From Spirochaetales bacterium (GTDB lineage: Bacteria; Spirochaetota; Spirochaetia; Treponematales; Treponemataceae): 45,185 bases of DNA. Positions 1,871 through 2,288 of this stretch are shown piece by piece (the stretch's first letter is position 1; every line of letters begins with the position of its first letter). The notes below the pieces were generated by a model, which had not been told where the DNA came from, ran no database searches, and worked only from the letters and a program-made list of their open reading frames with translations. Position numbers and translations under genes: made by a program. The DNA lies in NCBI GenBank assembly GCA_003246765.1, contig QKDA01000007.1:1-45185 (forward strand). The letters are read 5' to 3'.

Positions 1871-1899
1871 TTGACAAGAGAAAACGCTCGGGATACTGT
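1871..1899 (+). promoter_or_regulatory. Promoter of the thrS T-box leader
   Basis: Perfect -35 box TTGACA (1871-1876), 17-nt spacer, -10 box TACTGT (1894-1899; keeps the TA...T pattern). Predicted start of transcription is near 1906, immediately upstream of the T-box stem I region, giving a leader of about 380 nt to the thrS ATG. Confidence 0.65.
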
Positions 1900-1905
1900 A
1901 ATGGC

Positions 1906-2288
1906 AACGACACAGACGGAGACGAGTAGGTTCTGTCCAGGGCGTCACCAGAGAAGCGGCACGGATGAGACGGCGGAGGTCCCGAATAAAATCGGGGATA
2001 CCGCCCCTCCTGGCTGGAATGCCGCGGCCCCTGAGAACCGAAAACCCCTCCCGAGTCGCCGGGACCAACGCGCCTTTCGGGCGCCAGTATTTCCGGCCGC
2101 TTTCCGGGCGTTATCGGCGAAGAGCGCGTTCCCCGTCGCGGGGAAACGAAGCGGGGTGGAACCGCGGAACCTCATCGGGCCTCCATGGCCTGGATGGCGT
2201 TTCGTCCTCGCGGGAACGGCGGTCCGTATGGACTTGCCCGATACCGTGAGAAGGTTTCAGCGCCTCCTCACCTTGAGAGGAGCCCTCC
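1906..2288 (+). promoter_or_regulatory. T-box leader (riboswitch) of thrS, probably translational, tRNA-Thr responsive
   Basis: The T-box core GGGGTGGAACCGCGG (2153-2167) matches the family consensus exactly. The antiterminator-type helix is complete: GCGGGG (2151-2156) pairs with CCTCGC (2206-2211), and GCGGAAC (2164-2170) pairs with GTTTCGT (2199-2205), leaving the 7-nt bulge TGGAACC (2157-2163) that would bind the tRNA acceptor end. Upstream lie stem I-like elements in the expected order: AGTA (1925-1928), AGAGA (1950-1954) and GGATG (1963-1967). A Thr codon ACC (2000-2002) is the best specifier candidate; I could not fold stem I completely, so the specifier is not proven. A stem III-like hairpin precedes the core (TTCCCC/GGGGAA near 2129-2145). 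The bulge base A predicts a tRNA-Thr with discriminator U73. There is no U-tract before thrS. This element explains the 468-nt gap between genes. Confidence 0.9.
2264..2282 (+). promoter_or_regulatory. Hairpin covering the thrS Shine-Dalgarno
   Basis: CTCCTC (2264-2269) pairs perfectly with GAGGAG (2277-2282), which is the thrS ribosome-binding site, across a 7-nt loop. GAGGA can also pair with TCCTC (2205-2209), which is part of the 3' strand of the T-box helix. Either pairing would hide the ribosome-binding site when uncharged tRNA-Thr is absent, consistent with translational rather than transcriptional control. Confidence 0.6.

Follow-up and report, generated by a model that had tools for sequence, protein, structure and literature searches.

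The question raised by this locus is whether the leader that precedes thrS in a spirochaete is a T-box and by what means it could control the gene behind it. T-boxes have been described mostly from Gram-positive bacteria. The window, i.e. the whole stretch of DNA that was analyzed (45,185 nucleotides of contig QKDA01000007.1, from a Spirochaetales bacterium), had been predicted from its letters to carry such an element. Computation established the parts of the leader in the sequence, its match to the family, the covariation, the gene of the partner tRNA and the class of the host. The leader is a T-box in all the respects tested other than its off state, although its score lies under the curated cut-off, and the probability that it regulates thrS through tRNA-Thr is estimated at about 0.88. 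The features of the region are summarized in Table 1.

Table 1. Features of the thrS leader region, with positions in the window.
Feature	Positions	Strand	Basis
Putative promoter: −35 TTGACA (1871–1876), 17-nt spacer, weak −10 TACTGT (1894–1899)	1871–1899	+	Sequence
T-box leader	1904–2187	+	RF00230, 47.5 bits, E 3.1e-9 genome-wide, under gathering score 93
Stem I, from AGTA motif (1925–1928) to specifier loop (2040–2047)	1925–2047	+	Covariance-model alignment; upper helix covaries in relatives
Specifier codon ACC (Thr)	2044–2046	+	Read from sequence; conserved in relatives
Antiterminator-type helix, 2151–2156/2206–2211 and 2164–2170/2199–2205	2151–2211	+	13 pairs; covariation in 79 loci
T-box bulge UGGAACC, A2160 opposite U73 of tRNA-Thr	2157–2163	+	Sequence; tRNA gene
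Predicted hairpin GUGAGAAGG/CCUCCUCAC (2246–2254/2263–2271), which would free the Shine-Dalgarno sequence	2246–2271	+	Thermodynamic prediction, one sequence
Predicted Shine-Dalgarno hairpin; Shine-Dalgarno sequence GAGGAG (2277–2282)	2264–2282	+	Thermodynamic prediction
thrS, threonyl-tRNA synthetase, 585 aa	2289–4046	+	Pfam PF00587, PF03129, PF07973; open reading frame; ATG at 2289

The leader, its helices and its partner tRNA

In a search of 541 bases, the Rfam T-box model RF00230 matched the leader over its full length (model positions 1–219 of 219) with 47.5 bits and an E value of 2.2e-9, and the search of the whole 3.28-Mb genome returned this match alone. The covariance-model check suggested with the original prediction was thus positive, though under the gathering score of 93 bits, for which reason a default Rfam scan of the window comes back empty. 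The same search run on 14 named control genomes gave matches in five, of which two were above the gathering score. The folding energy of the leader was not exceptional (z −1.53; 6 of 100 shuffles equal or better), so the case for a T-box is drawn from the covariance-model match and the comparative data.

The T-box core and the Stem I-like motifs that had been reported in the right order are read in the sequence as AGTA, AGAACC (3′ strand of the upper Stem I helix, 2034–2039), GAAAACCC (the specifier loop) and TGGAACC. The specifier codon agrees with the amino acid of the gene downstream. Among the relatives, ACC was found at a fixed place in 61 of 64 thrS leaders and one base shifted in three more, using a pattern that did not force ACC and left 13 of 77 thrS leaders unmatched. 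The seven-nucleotide UGGNACC bulge lies inside the antiterminator-type helix, which had been described as fully paired and does form its 13 pairs, three of them G-U.

These helices covary strongly in the spirochaete relatives. The first five Stem I pairs above the specifier loop were formed in 51, 60, 58, 56 and 59 of 64 leaders, against a maximum of 36–41 of 64 in shuffles; pairs six to eight were not above shuffles in these leaders. Concerning the antiterminator (n = 79), pairs −6 to −2 and +4 to +7 were above all 500 shuffles (−2 by just one), a significance that, as for Stem I, is overstated because the shuffles ignore relatedness; pair +3 equalled the best shuffle and −7 was unpaired. The anchors used did not force the counted pairs; the antiterminator count omits 12 of the 91 loci and the Stem I count omits 27. 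Comparison of leaders in related spirochaetes, suggested at the outset for thrS, found pairs of both helices conserved above shuffles.

The promoter had been called good. Its −35 box is perfect and its spacer is of 17 nt, but the −10 box agrees at three of six positions and the consensus promoter scan gave no call at 1871–1899; the promoter is less convincing than had been stated. TTGAC occurred at most 75 nt upstream at 65 of the 91 T-box loci, versus a mean of 4.9 in shuffles.

Concerning the partner tRNA, 43 tRNA genes were found in the window's genome, ARAGORN being run on 30 retained loci. The tRNA-Thr(GGU) pattern had one match there, in a gene that ends in U73 with CCA not encoded; the genes of tRNA-Thr(UGU) and tRNA-Thr(CGU) have U73 as well. 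The U discriminator anticipated for tRNA-Thr(GGU) is therefore present, and base A of the bulge is able to pair with it. Across the group, U73 was found in 71 of 71 genomes with a tRNA match (that of G051 has its 5′ arm cut by the contig end). A tRNA match was available for 69 thrS loci, from 68 genomes, and was lacking for eight more; in the 69, the bulge base opposite U73 was U in 33 cases, A in 27, G in 7 and C in 1, and was not found in 1. The U-U mismatch is thus the commonest state (33/69), pairing or G-U wobble being available at 34 of 69 loci, and the bulge base changed at least nine times on the leader tree. With U73 fixed and the facing bulge base variable, the discriminator cannot be predicted from the bulge; the claim that it can holds in the window's genome, where A fits U73, and fails across the group. 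Covariation between the two bases as a proof of partnership was not seen in the 71 genomes, U73 being invariant in them.

TBDB gives Watson-Crick pairing of bulge and discriminator for a majority of T-boxes; the exception it cites is the Trp group, with G-U (PMC7778990). The U-U mismatch may mean that base 73 of the tRNA is not read, that the mismatch tunes the switch or that base 73 is modified. The spirochaete leaders are a natural set for asking if the bulge-discriminator pair is needed.

Mode of control

We infer that the window leader binds tRNA-Thr and responds to its charging, with the following direction of control. The Stem I codon would read the anticodon of tRNA-Thr(GGU), and the UCCA end of the uncharged tRNA would pair with UGGA of the bulge and hold the antiterminator-type helix; with the helix held, thrS would be on when charged tRNA-Thr is scarce. 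In most of the relatives examined, the helix would act by preventing a U-tract terminator. A U-tract hairpin with its 5′ arm inside the antiterminator was found in 48 of 72 thrS leaders (54 with a looser count). A run of four or more T is present in 36 of these; some of the hairpins are poor, e.g. that of L035. No terminator-like site was found in 1820–2300 of the window, nor by the scripted leader comparison, and no U-tract hairpin was found in five sister leaders (L038, L041, L044, L056 and L172). The mode of action in the window is therefore less sure than the identity of the leader.

Thermodynamic modelling points, with chances somewhat short of even, to control of the window's thrS at translation by a helix that frees the Shine-Dalgarno (SD) sequence. 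Without uncharged tRNA, the bulge would pair with GGUUUCA downstream (predicted at 2253–2259) and the SD would lie inside a hairpin; with the antiterminator-type helix formed, GUGAGAAGG would capture the anti-SD strand and the SD would open. In the predicted fold of the full leader, the bulge was paired downstream (0.98 for the tested pair 2160–2256) and the value for the SD hairpin was 0.82. The predicted openness of the SD was 0.04 without and 0.32 with a forced antiterminator; among 200 shuffles, a rise at least as large occurred in 4, a start as closed in 5, and both together in none.

The hairpin GUGAGAAGG/CCUCCUCAC was not seen in the sister leaders, and SD access was unchanged in all five on forming the antiterminator. 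No off state is apparent in them because the antiterminator is already their energy minimum, and among these six leaders the rival state is predicted in the window alone. Judged from the sequences, the SD-hairpin segment of the window seems to be inserted when set against L056 and L172. The idea of an SD switch common to terminator-less leaders found no support: access rises in L035, L055, L159, L183, L187 and L199, and not in others. As the structure was seen before it was tested and is not common to the sisters, the SD switch of the window is to be taken as a lead, not more.

It seems rather unlikely that transcription attenuation persists in the window, either Rho-dependent or through a weak hairpin without U-tract (GAACC...AUCGGGC with GCCCGAU...GGUUU). 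Such a mode would agree with the U-tract hairpins overlapping the antiterminator in 48 relatives' leaders, and AUCGGGC (2174–2180) is complementary to GCCCGAU (2236–2242), where the relatives have their terminator arms; however, both searches for a terminator were negative in the window and these arms have a probability of 0.00 in the free fold. It is unlikely, too, that the aptamer is retained with a weak or decaying regulation in the window's clade, towards the T-box loss of other Treponemataceae. The low score of the window copy, the antiterminator already at the energy minimum in the five sisters and the lack of a T-box at thrS in nine named Treponema genomes (of 13 named genomes examined) would fit such a decay, but the window, like the five sisters, has its specifier loop, bulge and antiterminator intact. 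In the 600 bases upstream of Treponema thrS, no core motif was found at two or fewer mismatches, bar one two-mismatch stretch in L071.

Keeping translational control as the preferred mode for the window, a broader joint reading can be proposed, which we consider doubtful: the spirochaete thrS T-boxes would have stopped reading base 73 (U73 constant, bulge drifting), the window's clade would have dropped the terminator, and the full-length T-box of the window would have turned into a translational switch, with a downstream GGUUUCA occupying the place of the tRNA 3′ end until uncharged tRNA pushes it aside.

Host, distribution and the gene behind the leader

As far as the kinship labels and record titles of the compared genomes go, the host, an uncultured bacterium, belongs to the class Spirochaetia. 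Two named Spirochaetales genomes (loci L061 and L069) have T-boxes at the same coordinates as G387 and G405, of the window's class, and the T-box stretch of L061 is identical to that of G387. The phylum check proposed originally was thus answered in part: 16S was not found in the window's assembly (273 contigs, 91% complete), while the class follows from the named genomes. In a ThrS search, the 11 best named matches were spirochaetes, followed by Betaproteobacteria (among the best 80 of 585). An assembly in 273 contigs with no 16S found would leave room for a stray Firmicute contig or for a recent transfer, but both are ruled out by the congeners: leader, thrS and neighbours are of the same kind there, and in some of these genomes they lie on contigs of 0.67 and 2.0 Mb. 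Both are also opposed by those ThrS matches and by thrS T-boxes in single-contig genomes of the phylum.

Counting the window's own genome, T-boxes were found in 32 of 59 near relatives and in 72 of 392 genomes of the phylum (25 of the 392 above the gathering score), with stricter filters under which weak matches are lost. Seventy-one of the 72 belong to the window's class, the exception being G087, with its T-box before an aminotransferase-like gene. The gene downstream is thrS at 77 of the 91 loci examined, spread over 14 families. The predicted combination of thrS target, Thr specifier and spirochaete host is borne out in the window. A T-box common to 14 families of the class does not go back to a single recent transfer, so that the choice first offered, a new phylum or a horizontal transfer, is answered in part. 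The simplest reading would be an old presence of the T-box in Spirochaetia, followed by losses. On the leader tree, the rows of f13, f5 and f3/f4 are mostly together, though support for the deep forks is low (33/88) and some rows fall elsewhere. By its spread over 14 families of Spirochaetia, the thrS T-box widens the known range of T-boxes.

Fourteen spirochaete T-boxes lie before genes other than thrS (L043, L141–L145, L149, L171, L176, L177, L184–L186 and L196). From translations read by eye, the gene is trpB at L043, sodium-symporter-like at L141, tryptophanase or tyrosine phenol-lyase-like at L145, aminotransferase-like at L171 and AMP-ligase-like at L142, L149, L176, L177, L184–L186 and L196.

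Concerning the synthetase itself, bacterial ThrS usually has a TGS domain; in the window's ThrS, the Pfam search found no TGS domain at the N-terminus and only the three domains of Table 1. A quick tree separated two groups (SH-aLRT 100), A with 49 rows and B with 56; every row of group A lies behind a T-box by selection, since these rows were taken from T-box loci only. Group B contains the window, other Treponemataceae, further spirochaetes and Proteobacteria. In G004 both types occur, each after its own T-box (L053 and L172). G006 (L048) and G009 (L057) have a type-B ThrS, near that of G008, and their leaders group with the type-A leaders of G003, G004 and G005 (100/99). Upstream of thrS, G006 and G009 share their neighbours with the type-A locus of G004 rather than with its type-B locus; none of these neighbours was found in the compared stretches of G003 and G005. 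The simplest reading of these sequences is that type-A thrS was replaced by type B behind a kept leader in G006 and G009. The leader-tree test against all type-B family leaders as one group was borderline (p-AU 0.047), this group being named post hoc. Spirochaete thrS thus offers a case of a leader seemingly outliving the gene behind it.

Two other observations concern the window's relatives. At L034 (G020, of the window's family), which has an odd base make-up, leader (99/99) and ThrS (95) both group with family f19, which suggests joint transfer of leader and gene. In the congeneric G001 and G011, the matches listed include none to ThrS stronger than about 1e-10; G011 is 99% complete, and there may be a more distant ThrS or a gap.

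Comparison with known T-boxes

A 2008 survey reports T-boxes in none of six spirochaete genomes and counts thrS with the ligases that carry T-boxes in nearly all Firmicutes (PMC2494555). The original statement that no T-box was established in spirochaetes agrees with the open-licence literature, where no published spirochaete T-box was found among the matches listed. Databases such as Rfam and TBDB may already hold some, since the strongest of the relatives' copies would be picked up in routine Rfam annotation.

The window leader resembles the RF00230 family and the transcriptional thrS T-boxes of Bacillota in that it matches the model over its full length, has a Thr specifier, a UGGN bulge and an antiterminator, and lies before thrS; it differs in its spirochaete host and in that no terminator was found in it. 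Among the synthetase genes of Bacillota, thrS alone has T-boxes in tandem (PMC12452182), whereas the window's genome has a single match. Translational T-boxes, mostly of Actinobacteria and before ileS, govern SD access through a tRNA-stabilized helix and, in most cases, have an intermediate or very short Stem I (PMC7583486). The control of the SD would be alike in the window, where it is predicted only, whereas the window's match spans the whole long model. Taken together, the spirochaete thrS T-box is an extension of the known RF00230 family, with a testable oddity at base 73.
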